A stretch of 64,000 bases of DNA, taken from the NCBI RefSeq assembly GCF_009497655.1, contig NZ_CP023317.1, forward strand, positions 3,935,501 to 3,999,500. The letters are read 5' to 3'. How positions within the stretch are numbered: position 1 is the first letter of the stretch; each line of letters begins with the position of its first letter. A program made the position numbers and the translations under genes. Below are positions 13,697 through 43,455 of this stretch, one piece after another. The notes below the pieces were generated by a model. The model saw only the letters and a list, made by a program, of their open reading frames with translations, ran no database searches and had not been told where the DNA came from. The stretch is from Priestia megaterium (GTDB lineage Bacteria > Bacillota > Bacilli > Bacillales > Bacillaceae_H).

Positions 13697-14779
13697 TTAC
13701 ATTTTATTTTGAATGCGGTATACGTAAGCTAATATTTCAGCCACCGCTTTAAAAAACTCTTCTGGAACCGCATCCCCTACTTTGGTTTGATCAAAAAGCG
13801 CTCTTGCCAGCGGGCGGTTCTCTACCATGATAATTTCATGACTTTTGGCAATTCCTTTGATCTTTTGAGCAATAAAATCCACGCCGCTGGCTACAACATA
13901 GGGAGCATCCATTTTTTCTTCATCATATTTTAAAGCAATGGCATAATGAGTAGGGTTTGTAATGACGACATCTGCTTTTGAAACTTCTTGCATCATGCGA
14001 GACATTGCCATTTCACGCTGCTTTTGCTTTATTTTTGATTTGATTAGAGGATCTCCTTCAATGTTTTTATGCTCATCTTTGATATCTTGCTTTGACATTC
14101 GAATATTTTTCTCGAAATCAAACTTTTGGTACAAATAATCAAGCAGCGATAAAAATAAAAGCATAAGCGAAGCTGCAAGTCCCATTTGAAAAACAAGCTT
14201 AGACAGAACAACCAGCGAGTCCCCTATACTTTTTTGAGATAAATTTAATACATCTTCTATGTGAATCCATAAGATAAAAAACGTGACGGCTCCGATACAC
14301 ATAATTTTCAGCGTTGACTTGATTAGTTCTACCAGCGCTCTCATGGCAAAAATTCGTTTGGCTCCGCTAATAGGGTTAATCTTTTCTAACTTAGGCTGAA
14401 GGGACTCCGTGGAAAAAAGAATGCCAACCTGCATATAATTCGCTCCGAGCGCAGCAACAAAAGCTGCGAGCATGACAGGACCCGCTGCAAGAGCAATTGA
14501 AGGAAGAAGATGCTTAAACATCGTAAATACGCGCTCTGCCGTCACTTCCTCAAGCATATACGTTTGAAAAGCTTCTCTTAACAGCTTCATCATTTGCTGT
14601 AAAAATTGTTTGGCTCCAAACAAAAAATAAAGAAAAACCATTAAAAGAATGAGCGCAGTGGTAACGTCTTGACTTTTAGCTACCTGTCCTTTTTTTCGAG
14701 AGTCCTGCTTTTTTTTAGGTGTAGCTTTTTCCGTTTTTTCTCCTGCAAAAAATTGCAAATCAACTTTTACTAAAAACAA
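13697..14779 (-). CDS. flhB: Flagellar export switch protein FlhB
   Basis: 360 residues. The N-terminal EKTEKATPKKKQDSRKKGQVAKSQD motif, four membrane helices, and the NPTH autocleavage site at Asn275-Pro276-Thr277-His278 are all present. FlhB switches the exporter from rod/hook to filament substrates through interaction with FliK, which is unusual here. The start is TTG at 14779 with GGAGGGG upstream. It follows fliR by 2 bp. Confidence 0.97.
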   Translation of the reverse strand: MFLVKVDLQFFAGEKTEKATPKKKQDSRKKGQVAKSQDVTTALILLMVFLYFLFGAKQFLQQMMKLLREAFQTYMLEEVTAERVFTMFKHLLPSIALAAGPVMLAAFVAALGANYMQVGILFSTESLQPKLEKINPISGAKRIFAMRALVELIKSTLKIMCIGAVTFFILWIHIEDVLNLSQKSIGDSLVVLSKLVFQMGLAASLMLLFLSLLDYLYQKFDFEKNIRMSKQDIKDEHKNIEGDPLIKSKIKQKQREMAMSRMMQEVSKADVVITNPTHYAIALKYDEEKMDAPYVVASGVDFIAQKIKGIAKSHEIIMVENRPLARALFDQTKVGDAVPEEFFKAVAEILAYVYRIQNKM

Positions 14780-21262: not shown

Positions 21263-21691
21263 TTAACTGCTTACTTCTAAGATATCGTTTAGCGAAAGTA
21301 CCGTATGATTTTCATCGTTGATCGTAAACGATACCTCATTGTTTTTGACGGATGCTGTTGAAATGACTCCTTGCTTTTTATTTCCTTCTTCATCTAACCA
21401 TGCAGCGGTTTTACCAATTAATTCGCTTCCTTTTAAAATAGGAGAAGCCTGAGACTGCGTTACAAACGTATTGAGCGATGTGCTCATATTTGTCATTTGT
21501 TCAAGAGATGAAAACTGAGCCATTTGAGCAATAAAGTCTTTGTCTTCCATTGGATTCATTGGATCTTGATTTTGAAGCTGAGCAATCAAAAGCTTCAAAA
21601 AGTCATCTTTGCCAAGCGAGCTGTTTCCCGTTTGCTTCACTTGTGTGTCCCTATTGCTTAGATACAAGTCAGACGTAATTTCATTTGTCAT
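21263..21691 (-). CDS. flgD: Flagellar hook cap/assembly protein FlgD
   Basis: 142 residues. The N-terminal export/cap segment has [43 protein letters not shown], the strongest FlgD signature. The C-terminal part is a short SH3-like region ([22 protein letters not shown]) without the full Tudor/FnIII pair, as in Bacillus. I start at ATG 21691, preceded by AGGTGAT; a GTG at 21700 is inside that site. It begins right after fliK. Confidence 0.95.
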
Positions 21692-21700
21692 TGTTATCAC

Positions 21701-24328
21701 CTATACGTTGTAGTTAATAAGCGCTGCTTCAAAAGAAGACAAAAATGAAGCCCCTTCTTCCAAGTGTTGTGAATCTTGATCTTCCTCTTCGTTTCTAAAC
21801 AGCTCTTTTTCCTGTCTTTCTTTTTGCTGATCGTTTTCATTGTTATACGACATCGCTTGTTCTGACAGCAGCACATCGATTTTATCAATTGATACATGCT
21901 GAGACGCGAGACCATGCCGCAAAGTTGAAAGATTGGAGTCCAATAACTCTTTTGTTTTTACTGACGATACGACAATTCGCGCAACCGTTTCGCTGTCTTT
22001 CTGAAGCATTTCAATTGAAATGGCACCTAGCTGTTTGGGAAATAACTTAATGAGAAGCTTGGATGTTCCCTCTTCAGTACTAAACGAAGCTTTACTCCAT
22101 ATTTTCTCAAGCTCGTTTACCAAATTGCTAGACTGCTGATAGTCTGATTTTGCTTGCCCTAGATAAATAGAGAACTGCTGAAGCTTAGGCATTTCTCCAC
22201 TTCCAAAGGATGATGCCTGATTCTCTACTGGCGCCCCGGTTGTGTGTGTACCTGCCGGACTTTCGCTATTTTCCAAAAAGCTATTGGTATCTATACTTCC
22301 GCTGGGTACAACCACATCTTTTTTCCATGGAAGCTGATTAAAAAACGGTACTTTTTCTTCTTTAGGAAAAGCAGTCATATTTTTCACAGAACTTTCTGAA
22401 GCTGTATGAACAGCGTCCATATCCACTTGATCAACCAATACATGCTGAGACCCGAGAGCCTGCCGTAAACTGAAAAGGTTGGCATTTAACAGCTCTTTTG
22501 TTTTTGCCGACGTTACCACAACCTGCGCAATCGTTTCATCGTCTTGTTGAAGTACTTCAATTGATATTGTCCCTAGCTGATTTGGAAATAGCTGAATGGA
22601 AAGCTTGGACGCCCCCTCTTCAGATCCAACTGAAGCTTTACTCCATATTTTTTGCAGCTCGTTTACCAGATCGCTAGACTGTTCATAATCTGATTTCGCT
22701 TTCCCTAAATCAATAGAAAACTGCGGCCTTTTTTCTTCTTTACCAAAAGCAGTCATATCTGTTACTGAACTTTTTGGAGCTGCTTGAACAGTAGCCACAT
22801 CCACTTCATCAACGGATACATGCTGAGACGTGAGAGCTTGTCGTAAACTGAAAAGGTTGGCATTTAACAGCTCTTTTGTTTTCGCTGACGATACAGCTAC
22901 TTGTGCAACCGTTTCATTGTCTTGTTGAAACACTTCAATTGAAATCGGCCCTAGCTGCTTTGGAAATAACTGAATGGAAAGCTTGGATGCTCCTTCTTCA
23001 ATACTGATGGAAGCTTCACTCCATATTTTTTCCAGATTATTCACCAAATCCCTAGACTGCTGATAGTCTGATTTTACTTGGCTTAAATCAATAGAAAACT
23101 GCGGCTCTTTTTCTTCTTTACCAAAAGCATTCATCTCTGTTACAGAACTTTCTGGAGCTGCTTGAACGCCCGCCGCATCCACTTGATCAACCGCTACGCG
23201 TTGAGACGCAAGAGCTTGTCGTAAACTGAAAAGGTTGGCATCTAACAGCTCTTTTGTTTTCGCTGACGTTACCACAACCTGCGCAATTGTTTCATTGTCT
23301 TGTTGAAGCACTTCAATTGAAATCGTCCCTAGCTGCTCTGGAAACAATTTAATGGAAAGCTTGGATGCTCCTTCTTCAGTACTGATCGAAGCTTTACTCC
23401 ATATTTTTTGCAGCTCATTTACCAGATCGTCAGACTGTTGATGATCAGAGTTTGCTTGCCCTAGATCAATAGAAAACTCTTGGATCTTAAGCATTTCTCC
23501 AGCTCCAAAAGCTGATGGGTTATTTTTTAACGTCAACCCGGCTGTTTTAGCAGTGAAAGAACTTTCACTATCTATACTTGGGTTACCTAAAACCACATCT
23601 TTTTTCCATGGAAGCTGATTAAATAGCGGCCCTTTTTCTTCTTTACGAACAGCGCTCATATCTTTTAGAGAATTTTTTGAAGTTGAATGAACAACGGCGA
23701 AAAAACCAGCTGAGCGCTTTTCATGTAAGGTATCGGTTAATACACGTGGTTGTTTATGAATTTTCTCTATTTTTTCAACAGCAGCTTTCCGCAAGCCTTG
23801 AAGCTGCGAATCTGAAAGCTTCACTGACTGTAGCTGCGGTTTTTGTAGTTTTTCCATCAGCTGAGCAAACTCTGTTTGAAACGCAGACGACGTGTTTTTG
23901 CATATAGTCAACAAGCTAGAAATAGAAGACAAATATTGTTCTTGACTGTCTGTTTTAGATGAAACAGGTTCGTGCTGCATTTCTGTTAACACGTGCTGCA
24001 GCTTTAGAAGCGGCTGTTCCAAATCTAGACTACTTGGAATACTACTGATCATTTCGGCTAGATGTTCGTATAAGACAGACGGTTCATCTCCTTCATATTC
24101 TGCTTCGCTTAACTGAATCGCAATTAACCCGACCGCGTTAAAGACGTCTTGATTTATCGCTTGTTCATTCAATGATTTCTCCCGGCTCGCTAAAGGTTGC
24201 GCATTTAGCTGCTGAAGCTGTTGAACGATTTCTTCAAAAAAACCCTGAGTCTGAATAACAGCCGCTTTTTCATCGCAGTTTACCTTTGATGCAGCTGCTG
24301 GACGTAGTGAAATTTCCACTGTTTTCAC
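21701..24328 (-). CDS. fliK: Flagellar hook-length control protein FliK with four tandem Flg_hook domains
   Basis: 875 residues, far longer than B. subtilis FliK (about 490). Residues 1-225 are a Gln/Ser/Leu-rich secreted N-terminal region. From 285 onward a roughly 126-residue module recurs four times, starting at about residues 285, 411, 537 and 719. Each contains the Flg_hook core pattern LxIxLFPxQLGxISIE...VxSxKTKELLxxNLxxLRxxLxSQ. The acidic tail (825-875) is Glu/Gln rich. Normal FliK has one such core, which acts on FlhB to stop hook growth. The gene follows ylxF and precedes flgD. A start at GTG 24319 is equally likely, since GAGGTG at 24328 is probably its ribosome binding site. Confidence 0.95.
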   Translation of the reverse strand: MKTVEISLRPAAASKVNCDEKAAVIQTQGFFEEIVQQLQQLNAQPLASREKSLNEQAINQDVFNAVGLIAIQLSEAEYEGDEPSVLYEHLAEMISSIPSSLDLEQPLLKLQHVLTEMQHEPVSSKTDSQEQYLSSISSLLTICKNTSSAFQTEFAQLMEKLQKPQLQSVKLSDSQLQGLRKAAVEKIEKIHKQPRVLTDTLHEKRSAGFFAVVHSTSKNSLKDMSAVRKEEKGPLFNQLPWKKDVVLGNPSIDSESSFTAKTAGLTLKNNPSAFGAGEMLKIQEFSIDLGQANSDHQQSDDLVNELQKIWSKASISTEEGASKLSIKLFPEQLGTISIEVLQQDNETIAQVVVTSAKTKELLDANLFSLRQALASQRVAVDQVDAAGVQAAPESSVTEMNAFGKEEKEPQFSIDLSQVKSDYQQSRDLVNNLEKIWSEASISIEEGASKLSIQLFPKQLGPISIEVFQQDNETVAQVAVSSAKTKELLNANLFSLRQALTSQHVSVDEVDVATVQAAPKSSVTDMTAFGKEEKRPQFSIDLGKAKSDYEQSSDLVNELQKIWSKASVGSEEGASKLSIQLFPNQLGTISIEVLQQDDETIAQVVVTSAKTKELLNANLFSLRQALGSQHVLVDQVDMDAVHTASESSVKNMTAFPKEEKVPFFNQLPWKKDVVVPSGSIDTNSFLENSESPAGTHTTGAPVENQASSFGSGEMPKLQQFSIYLGQAKSDYQQSSNLVNELEKIWSKASFSTEEGTSKLLIKLFPKQLGAISIEMLQKDSETVARIVVSSVKTKELLDSNLSTLRHGLASQHVSIDKIDVLLSEQAMSYNNENDQQKERQEKELFRNEEEDQDSQHLEEGASFLSSFEAALINYNV
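21869..23476 (-). repeat. Intragenic tandem repeat array in fliK: four Flg_hook modules
   Basis: Four direct copies lie at about 23099-23476, 22721-23098, 22349-22720 and 21869-22174. Copies 1 and 2 start exactly 378 bp apart, as do 2 and 3; a 168-bp linker precedes copy 4. The first three are very similar at nucleotide as well as protein level, suggesting recent duplication or gene conversion; copy 4 is more diverged and is probably the ancestral domain. All copies keep the reading frame and the hydrophobic core. Confidence 0.93.
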
Positions 24329-24336
24329 CTCTGCTT

Positions 24337-24969
24337 TTATTCATCAATCTGATCTGTTAACAATGTCGTATAGCGTGCAGCTACTTTCGGATCCATTTTT
24401 TCTAAGATTGCCGTTCTTGTACTTGCTTTGAACTGCTTAAGCATCGCGACCGCTTTGTCTTCTTTTAATTCGGCAAAAATGAGCGCTGCATTTTTAGGAG
24501 ACATGTTTTCATAGGTAGCAATGACATCTTTTTTCGCCAGCTGATTGTTCTTTTGTTTTTTCGCTTCGTCATCGGCTTTTTCTTCCATATCACGCATTTC
24601 AATTTTTAGTTCATCCATTTGACGATCTTTTGTACTGATCGTTTTCTCATAGGCTGAAATTTGCTTTTCTTTCGTGCTCAGCTTCTTTTGAAGGCTCTCA
24701 ACCTGCTTTTGTATTTCTTCATTGCTTTCTTGAATATTTTCATTTTTTTGTGACTGCTCACTTGATACAAATGGAATGGCGTGTGTAACAGCAGAAACCT
24801 TATCATTTATATTGACGCCTAAAAGTGTCAGGACAATGTAAGCTGCCAAGATGAGGAACACCGCTGGAATAAAGATTAAAAATAAAAACACCTGGCTTTT
24901 ACTGTAAGATTTCCCATCTTCATAGTTTTCTTCTTCGTACTCTTCTCTTAATTCTTTTCGTTTAGCCAT
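24337..24969 (-). CDS. ylxF: MotE-family flagellar protein YlxF
   Basis: 210 residues: a charged cytoplasmic N-terminus, one membrane helix (about 27-49), a long coiled coil (about 75-145), and a C-terminal MgtE-N/MotE-like domain (ATYENMSPKNAALIFAELKEDKAVAMLKQFKASTRTAILEKMDPKVAARYTTLL). It holds the B. subtilis ylxF place between fliJ and fliK. The exact role is not settled; MotE relatives act in motor or export functions. Start chosen at ATG 24969 after AGGTGA. Confidence 0.9.
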   Translation of the reverse strand: MAKRKELREEYEEENYEDGKSYSKSQVFLFLIFIPAVFLILAAYIVLTLLGVNINDKVSAVTHAIPFVSSEQSQKNENIQESNEEIQKQVESLQKKLSTKEKQISAYEKTISTKDRQMDELKIEMRDMEEKADDEAKKQKNNQLAKKDVIATYENMSPKNAALIFAELKEDKAVAMLKQFKASTRTAILEKMDPKVAARYTTLLTDQIDE

Positions 24970-24978
24970 GTTTTTCAC

Positions 24979-42335: not shown

Positions 42336-42363
42336 TGTATAAAAATAATTGTCTAATTGTCTA
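42334..42363 (-). promoter_or_regulatory. Sigma-A promoter of sucCD
   Basis: Minus strand -35 TAGACA (42358-42363), 18-bp spacer and -10 TACAAT (42334-42339). A second TAGACA occurs 8 bp closer to the -10. Predicted leader about 55 nt. Confidence 0.6.
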
Positions 42364-42546
42364 CTATTCTAGTGAAAAATATTGAAATAATAAGAAAATT
42401 GATATTTTTATGGAGATAGTACTTAACCATACCTTATGAAGTAGATGAGGCTCTGCGGACGTTAAACGTGTGGTTGATCATGTAAATCAACCTTCATAAC
42501 TAAAGCACACTGAGAGGAAAATAATTTACGAATTTTTCCCGCTGCA

Positions 42547-42624
42547 ATATCTCCGCTTACATAGGCTATATTCTTTTTAAGCCTAGAATCCCGCATTGAA
42601 ACATGCGCTAAAAAGCAGAGATAT
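42547..42624 (-). ncRNA. Candidate structured RNA (three-way junction) downstream of rnhB
   Basis: A 12-bp closing stem (atatctccgctt at 42547-42558 with aagcagagatat at 42613-42624) encloses two hairpins: taggct/agccta (42562-42567, 42580-42585) and cgcat/atgcg (42592-42596, 42603-42607). The single non-Watson-Crick position is C-A on the plus strand but G-U on the minus strand, favouring a minus-strand RNA. No U tract follows, so it is not a simple terminator. Function unknown; existence as an RNA is unproven. Confidence 0.35.
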
Positions 42625-42640
42625 GCTCGGGTATCATGTT

Positions 42641-43408
42641 CTAGTTTACTTGGTTTTTTATCGGTGCAAAAGATCGGCGGTGTTCTGGCAAAATTCCATA
42701 TTGTTCGATTGCTTCTAAATGTTGTTTTGTTCCATATCCCATATGTTTTTCGAGTCCGTATGCAGGATAGCGTTCACCAAGTTCTTTCATCATTCGATCT
42801 CGCGTCACTTTTGCAATAACAGAACTTGCAGCAATTGAAATGCTTGTAGCATCGCCTTTAATGATTGACTGCTGTGAAATAGGCACCGGCAGCTTCATCG
42901 CATCAATGAGCAGTTCATCAGGCTGAACTGCCAGCAGTTCAATGGCTTCAGTCATTGCCTTTTTTGTTGCTTCGTAAATATTAATAGAATCAATGACCTC
43001 TGCGTCTATAATCCCTATACCGATAGCGACAGCTTTTTTACAAATTTCTTCATAAAACGCTTCTCGCTTTGCTTCTGATAACTTCTTTGAATCCGTCAGA
43101 CCAGGGAGAAAAAAATCGGGAGGCAAAATAACAGCAGCCGCTACTACCGGTCCTGCTAACGGTCCTCTTCCTACTTCGTCTACTCCGGCAATATAAGTTG
43201 CTCCTTGCCTATATAATTCATTTTCATATGCCATCATTTCATCAAACTGTTGCTTCAAGCGCTCAGCCGCTTCAAATTGCCTTTGTTTTTGAATAATAAC
43301 CTGCTGCACACCTTTACGCTCATCTTGCGCATATGCCTTAAATAAAGCATCTTCCGGGCTTCTCACTTGCTTTAGTTCCTCTTTTATTTCCTTAATACTC
43401 TTTTTCAT
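42641..43408 (-). CDS. rnhB: Ribonuclease HII
   Basis: 255 residues. An N-terminal helical extension typical of Bacillus RnhB precedes the catalytic domain with [43 protein letters not shown] and KVTRDRMM. It removes ribonucleotides from DNA. I start at ATG 43408 with GGTGGAG immediately upstream and a family-typical length; a longer frame to 43453 lacks a site. Confidence 0.97.
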
Positions 43409-43455
43409 TAGCTCCACCTTCTTTATATCAACATTTTCACGCGGCACTTTCACAT

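Follow-up and report, generated by a model that had tools for sequence, protein, structure and literature searches.

The fliK gene of Priestia megaterium encodes an 875-aa FliK, the hook-length control protein, that carries four Flg_hook/T3S4 switch domains in place of the usual single T3S4 domain at the C-terminus. It lies in the window, the 64,000-nt stretch of contig NZ_CP023317.1 (positions 3,935,501 to 3,999,500) that was analyzed. Against Pfam Flg_hook (PF02120), hmmscan matched the protein in four stretches with an E-value of 1.2e-48 and 163.2 bits, and each module taken alone scored 46.8–55.6 bits, above the curated cut-off of 29.8 bits. The original prediction of four such hits, with modules starting at residues 285, 411, 537, and 719, was therefore confirmed. 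The window genome (5.24 Mb, three contigs) has four Flg_hook matches, all in the one frame of fliK; NCBIfam gave nothing above its cut-off. At the nucleotide level, a tandem repeat finder reported a 378-nt unit in 3.0 copies with 84% matches and 0 indels, and a repeat finder reported an extra, more distant copy; the Flg_hook and repeat scores exclude a chance origin of the four-domain pattern. The repeat unit is 126 residues long, its copies are in-frame and 78–86% identical in nucleotides to one another (over 300 nt), and a linker stands ahead of copy 1 and of copy 4. The parts of the gene are listed below together with other genes of the window; the neighbors of fliK carry names that we take from a reading of their sequences.

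21701–24328, minus strand: fliK, 875 aa, GTG start
21263–21700: gene read as flgD, beside fliK on one side
24337–24978: 213-aa gene, beside fliK on the other side
23714–24328, minus strand: N-terminal helical region, residues 1–205, putative ruler domain by analogy
23477–23713, minus strand: linker 1, residues 206–284, of which the portion 23556–23696 is repeated at 22275–22415 (79%)
23099–23476, minus strand: module 1, residues 285–410, internal type, Flg_hook 51.6 bits
22721–23098, minus strand: module 2, residues 411–536, internal type, Flg_hook 55.6 bits
22343–22720, minus strand: module 3, residues 537–662, internal type, Flg_hook 46.8 bits
22175–22342, minus strand: linker 2, residues 663–718, its opening part within the linker 1 repeat
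21869–22174, minus strand: module 4, residues 719–820, terminal type, Flg_hook 47.0 bits
21704–21868, minus strand: C-terminal tail, residues 821–875, ending in ALINYNV, one per protein
13721–14743, minus strand (G000:C1:3949221-3950243): FlhB, the presumed partner of FliK and the sole Bac_export_2 match of the genome
41112–42335: gene read as sucC, flanking the interval 42336–42640
42641–43453: gene read as rnhB, flanking the same interval on its other side

The motifs LFPxQLGxISIE and KTKELLxxNL are present in all four copies, as first described. The opening FSIDL, attributed to every copy, holds for the first three, but copy 4 begins FSIYL. Similarly, the linker placed ahead of copy 4 is present but is largely a repeat of the copy 1 linker, to which it is tied by the 141-nt repeat of linker 1.

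Flg_hook matches were identified in nine of 10 Priestia genomes. The window genome (G000) and G006 have four copies each, P. aryabhattai B8W22 (G001) has three, and G003 has two; G002, G004, G005, G007, and G009 have a single copy. The layout is unusual, as had been supposed. Within the genus, four of 10 genomes have two to four copies in one FliK, and the survey of related fliK genes that the prediction called for revealed a copy number that varies among them. G008 had no FliK match and no FlhB match and is apparently without a flagellar export system of this kind. The multi-copy FliKs are 629 (two copies), 749 (three copies), and 875 and 881 aa (four copies each) in length, and the single-copy ones 400, 405, 406, and 425 aa, with 717 aa in G007. 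The four multi-copy genomes constitute one tight clade (100/100) in a tree of FliI and FliG, and the FliI of the relatives in this clade is 97.7–98.9% identical to that of the window. Relatives of fliI and fliG, with the window genes as queries, were found next to fliK in all 14 other genomes compared.

Tandem arrays are often misassembled, which speaks for an assembly or sequencing artefact. Such an artefact is highly improbable here, given that the copies differ in nucleotide sequence to the extent stated, the reading frame stays open for 875 aa, three relatives in the clade have similar arrays, and the module copies pair across genomes in the tree. As far as the presence of the array is concerned, it is refuted by the related genomes and the divergent copies, in line with the earlier view of an assembly error as unlikely; the exact number of copies could still be corrected.

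The distance between successive module motifs is 182 residues in G003, corresponding to linker plus domain, vs 126, 126, and 182 in the window FliK. On this spacing, the simplest history would be that the C-terminal switch (T3S4) domain was duplicated along with its linker and that a 126-residue unit was then amplified. An alignment of the window FliK with that of P. aryabhattai B8W22 differs by exactly one unit, window module 2, and window module 3 pairs with P. aryabhattai module 2 at a support of 98/97, while the internal copies of G006 group together (91/90). The 13 modules of the multi-copy FliKs form one group vs the domains of five single-copy relatives (100/100), and an origin of the extra domains in another FliK is therefore unsupported. 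Donation by another Flg_hook protein of the same genome was rejected as well, as the window genome has no Flg_hook outside fliK. A BLAST search of FliK against plasmids returned a single distant match only.

The main rival to the functional reading given below is a neutral or near-neutral expansion, in which a unit is gained or lost by recombination and the internal copies stay foldable merely to avoid blocking secretion; it would be tolerated since FliK length can vary widely. It is favored by copy numbers of two, three, four, and four among genomes with such similar FliI, by the exact one-unit gain or loss between the window and P. aryabhattai, by the likeness of the G006 internal copies, as local turnover predicts, and by two other FliKs with repeats in other segments. 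The selection on the internal copies and their shared class residues, both described next, stand against it, and we regard it as a serious, if doubtful, possibility.

The copies fall into two classes, internal and last, according to an alignment of all 13 modules from the multi-copy FliKs with the one domain of each of five relatives. In the tree, a single group (91/87) holds the nine internal copies; the last copies, four in all, fall outside it and form no supported group of their own. Last copies are 91–97% identical in nucleotides between species and 77–85% identical to internal copies. Between species, dN is 0.017–0.058 for last copies and 0.040–0.149 for first copies, the latter being higher in all six species pairs (codon-bootstrap P ≤0.004 in five pairs and 0.086 in the closest pair). 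However, dS is likewise higher in first than in last copies in every pair, so recombination or turnover between copies may inflate the divergence of the first copy. The dN/dS of the internal copies is below 1 (bootstrap P for w ≥1 of 0.002–0.033, 11 comparisons tested), which indicates that purifying selection acts on them, with a constraint that is weaker than on the last copy yet not absent. A purely neutral expansion does not readily account for this ratio.

Compared with the five single-copy domains, the last copies average 39.6–40.8% identity and the internal copies 32.8–38.8%. Ten sites separate the two classes (numbered as residues of the window FliK, G000): the single-copy state equals that of the last copies at 784, 785, and 816 and that of the internal copies at 805, and six sites are ambiguous. 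Residue 784 is R in 4/4 last copies and 5/5 single-copy relatives and Q in 9/9 internal copies, and residue 816 is K in 4/4 last copies and 5/5 single-copy relatives vs one of nine internal copies. At site 774, V is common to the nine internal copies and occurs in neither the last copies nor the single-copy relatives. The shared Q784 and V774 suggest an old class and not fresh random copies, contrary to what neutral expansion would lead one to expect. Salmonella FliK has Q at the place aligned to residue 784, so the R784Q difference is a class mark and not proof of lost function. The idea that the last copy is the unchanged copy holds only in part, because the single-copy state matches the last copies at just three of the 10 class sites. 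Pfam scores do not set the last copy of the window apart, with 47.0 bits in a range of 46.8–55.6 bits.

For the structure of the copies, module 2 was modeled with AlphaFold2 from seven sequences at a mean pLDDT of 79.6. In Foldseek, the model matched 2RRL, the C domain of Salmonella FliK (E 3.0e-5, probability 1.00, TM-score 0.51 over the query), and 5CUK, the SS domain of PscP (E 8.1e-5, probability 1.00, and a modest TM-score of 0.51), and these two were its sole PDB matches at E ≤0.001. Module 2 is thus predicted to fold like the solved switch domains of FliK and PscP. Taken with the dN/dS below 1, this predicted fold suggests that the internal copies are kept as folded domains. The model of the full-length FliK is poor (pLDDT 40.1); in it, a similar strand–helix pattern recurs four times, and the N-terminal part contains helices.

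The injectisome rulers SctP/YscP/PscP, to which the second-best fold match belongs, are known to set needle length, which follows the length of the ruler; Priestia FliK differs from them by sitting among flagellar genes and by having tandem switch domains. Salmonella FliK (405 aa) shares with it the place in the flagellar cluster, the N-terminal helices, a linker, the Flg_hook core, and a C-terminal tail, as well as the core motif L-x-P-x-x-L-G-x-[IV]-x-I and the 2RRL fold predicted for module 2. It has one core, whereas the Priestia protein has four, of which the internal ones are tail-less. Salmonella FliK is described as an N-terminal ruler (residues 1–207), a linker, a folded FlhB-binding core (residues 268–352), and a disordered tail; V302 and I304 crosslink to FlhB, and genetics suggest that the tail beyond the core controls switching (PMC6972891). 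By analogy with this layout (PMC6972891), and from the helices in the low-confidence full-length model, residues 1–205 of the Priestia protein would form its ruler domain, with the boundary placed where the linker repeat begins.

Salmonella V302/I304, placed by alignment to 2RRL with the residue numbering of 2RRL assumed, correspond to an I-x-I motif that every one of the 13 modules in the multi-copy genomes has, including 9/9 internal copies. FlhB binding by the internal copies may therefore survive. The motif agrees with a multiple-chance switch, as envisaged in the original prediction, in which each copy acts on FlhB in turn, the first possibly switching early and the later ones serving as back-up. 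Purifying selection on the internal copies points the same way, as does the position of the first copy, whose distance from the N-terminus is similar to that of the sole copy in four of the five single-copy Priestia (module motif at residues 328–335 vs 292–313; 609 in G007). Against it, one internal copy of P. aryabhattai has lost the motif's conserved G (LFPKQLE), all three internal copies of G006 have LLP in place of LFP, slow change is restricted to the last copy, and the tail is absent from every internal copy. The tail motif, ALINYNV or VLINYNI, occurs once per protein and at the very end in all nine Priestia FliKs, with none behind an internal copy in any of the nine. Among other members of the family, three of six match it (G010, G011, and G012); the end of the G013 FliK is similar by eye (LLNINV), and those of G014 and G015 differ. 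A switch thrown by each copy in turn is, on balance, quite unlikely. Of the roles initially proposed for the copies, lengthening of the ruler fits, as copy number and total length shift together and two other FliKs have grown through repeats of N-terminal or middle segments, but several chances to switch are less favored, since a single tail follows the last copy and this copy changes more slowly and is nearer to the single-copy relatives.

FliKs of other genomes have been lengthened by repeats as well, as an ungapped scan of diagonals with shuffled controls showed. The 717-aa FliK of G007, a Priestia, has one Flg_hook and an N-terminal 148-aa unit repeated over positions 75–532 at offsets 148 and 296. 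The 913-aa FliK of G145, from another family, has a unit of approximately 149 aa repeated in its N-terminal and middle part and one Flg_hook in that frame. In both, as in the multi-copy clade, repeats lengthen FliK, but here they involve a segment other than the switch domain, and G145 belongs to another lineage. Set against the switch-domain arrays of the clade, these units show that FliKs can lengthen through repeats in either half.

The distribution of the layout was surveyed in the order and the class of the window genome, presumably Bacilli, plus 14 control genomes. In the order, 377 of 397 genomes have Flg_hook, and 113 non-Priestia genomes with at least two matches, picked by eye, were re-searched, G014 and G015 being judged on a separate search. 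In the two large searches, at most 13 or 17 candidates per genome were scored. Among the matches listed, only G178 and G021 have several Flg_hook in one frame. The 662-aa protein of G178 has three, the last with the top score (71.4 bits), and the 794-aa protein of G021 has two, of which one falls short of the cut-off at 28.5 bits and the last scores highest (45.0 bits). These FliKs likewise have several Flg_hook, but the copies are far more divergent and belong to other lineages. In the remaining 111 genomes, the further matches occupy other frames; most are weak, and a distance of 15–20 kb from the main one is common. Several Flg_hook in one protein are therefore present in at least six of the 397 genomes of the order, in three genera, the four Priestia genomes included. 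The class survey comprised 299 genomes, of which 27 (the window's included) belong to the order, leaving 272 new ones and 669 genomes in all; 75 genomes chosen by eye for having several matches were searched again, and none of them had a second Flg_hook in the same frame among the matches listed. Judged from these genomes, a FliK with several Flg_hook is a rare layout that arose more than once in the surveyed class.

In the titles and abstract openings of the open-licence literature, neither a description of a FliK with several switch domains nor a hook length or secretion rate for a Priestia species was found; the genome paper of P. megaterium B1 lists fliK among the flagellar genes. Within that literature, several switch domains in tandem constitute an undescribed variant of FliK.

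Further observations concern FlhB and proteins resembling its C-terminal part. Stand-alone FlhB-C-like proteins occur in none of the four multi-copy and all five single-copy Priestia genomes, and no link to the FliK array is claimed. In G004, G005, G007, and G009, an FlhB-C-like gene stands beside a 506–564-aa gene between rnhB and sucC, a pair that we take to be ylqG/ylqH in B. subtilis naming, the small one being FlhB-C-like. The pair is absent from the window (42336–42640), from G001, G003, and G006, and also from the single-copy G002. Neighbors of FlhB-C-like genes of approximately 500–700 aa were considered as FliK relatives and rejected, with Flg_hook in none of six even at E ≤1. At G007:C20:455000-459000, a large repeat-bearing gene of at least 700 aa without Flg_hook adjoins a 97-aa FlhB-C-like protein (Bac_export_2, 59.2 bits), with a 158-aa FliS-like gene and flagellin alongside, by eye; a large gene similar to it is located at G005:C7:1500-6000. 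The flhB of the two-copy G003 (G003:C1:557808-558829) appears to be split: its matches overlap, and it contains one TAG. Either a draft error or decay could account for this.

The explanation that we favor, at close to an even chance, is that the internal copies serve as folded ruler segments and secretion brakes and that the last copy, together with the tail, flips the switch. After the duplication and amplification outlined above, the internal copies would no longer flip the export switch; they would unfold one by one as FliK threads through the export gate, thereby lengthening FliK and slowing its transit. The last copy alone, with linker 2 ahead and the single tail behind, would act on FlhB, and each extra unit would raise the set hook length, or the dwell time, stepwise. 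A model of 2026 proposes that secretion pauses because part of the switch domain is folded and has to unfold first, and that during this pause the terminal residues of FliK destabilize or eject the cleaved FlhB domain, FlhB-CCD (PMC13344023). This model and the Salmonella work on the tail favor the explanation in view of a tail confined to the end of the protein (PMC6972891; PMC13344023). It is further favored by last copies that change more slowly and are on average nearer to the single-copy relatives, by the residues at sites 784 and 816, by the grouping of the internal copies, by their dN/dS below 1 and the predicted fold of module 2, and by the FliKs that were lengthened elsewhere. Counted against it are the I-x-I motif kept in the internal copies, the mixed state of the 10 class sites, an R784Q difference that need not be disabling, the flat Pfam scores, the dS pattern, and the last copies left ungrouped in the tree.

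From the motifs, internal copies could dock on FlhB and so act as a brake, or an early copy could be a genuine switch. An unlikely variant is a stepped ruler, in which several folded catches dock on FlhB in turn and halt the threading, and the last alone is the trigger. If true, the machine would register the number of catches in addition to length, and hook length would be tuned over evolution by whole catches gained or lost.

At 0.37 nm per residue, the value given for a fully extended chain (PMC6972891), the first core (approximately residue 300) would lie approximately 110 nm and the last (approximately residue 730) approximately 270 nm from the N-terminus, both values being upper bounds. 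With core positions this far apart, hook lengths by electron microscopy could tell which copy does the switching. FliK may measure the hook by a stretched ruler, by the timing of secretion, or by a pause at a folded domain, and close relatives with two, three, and four switch domains, together with the long N-terminus of the G007 FliK, provide a natural series for telling these apart.
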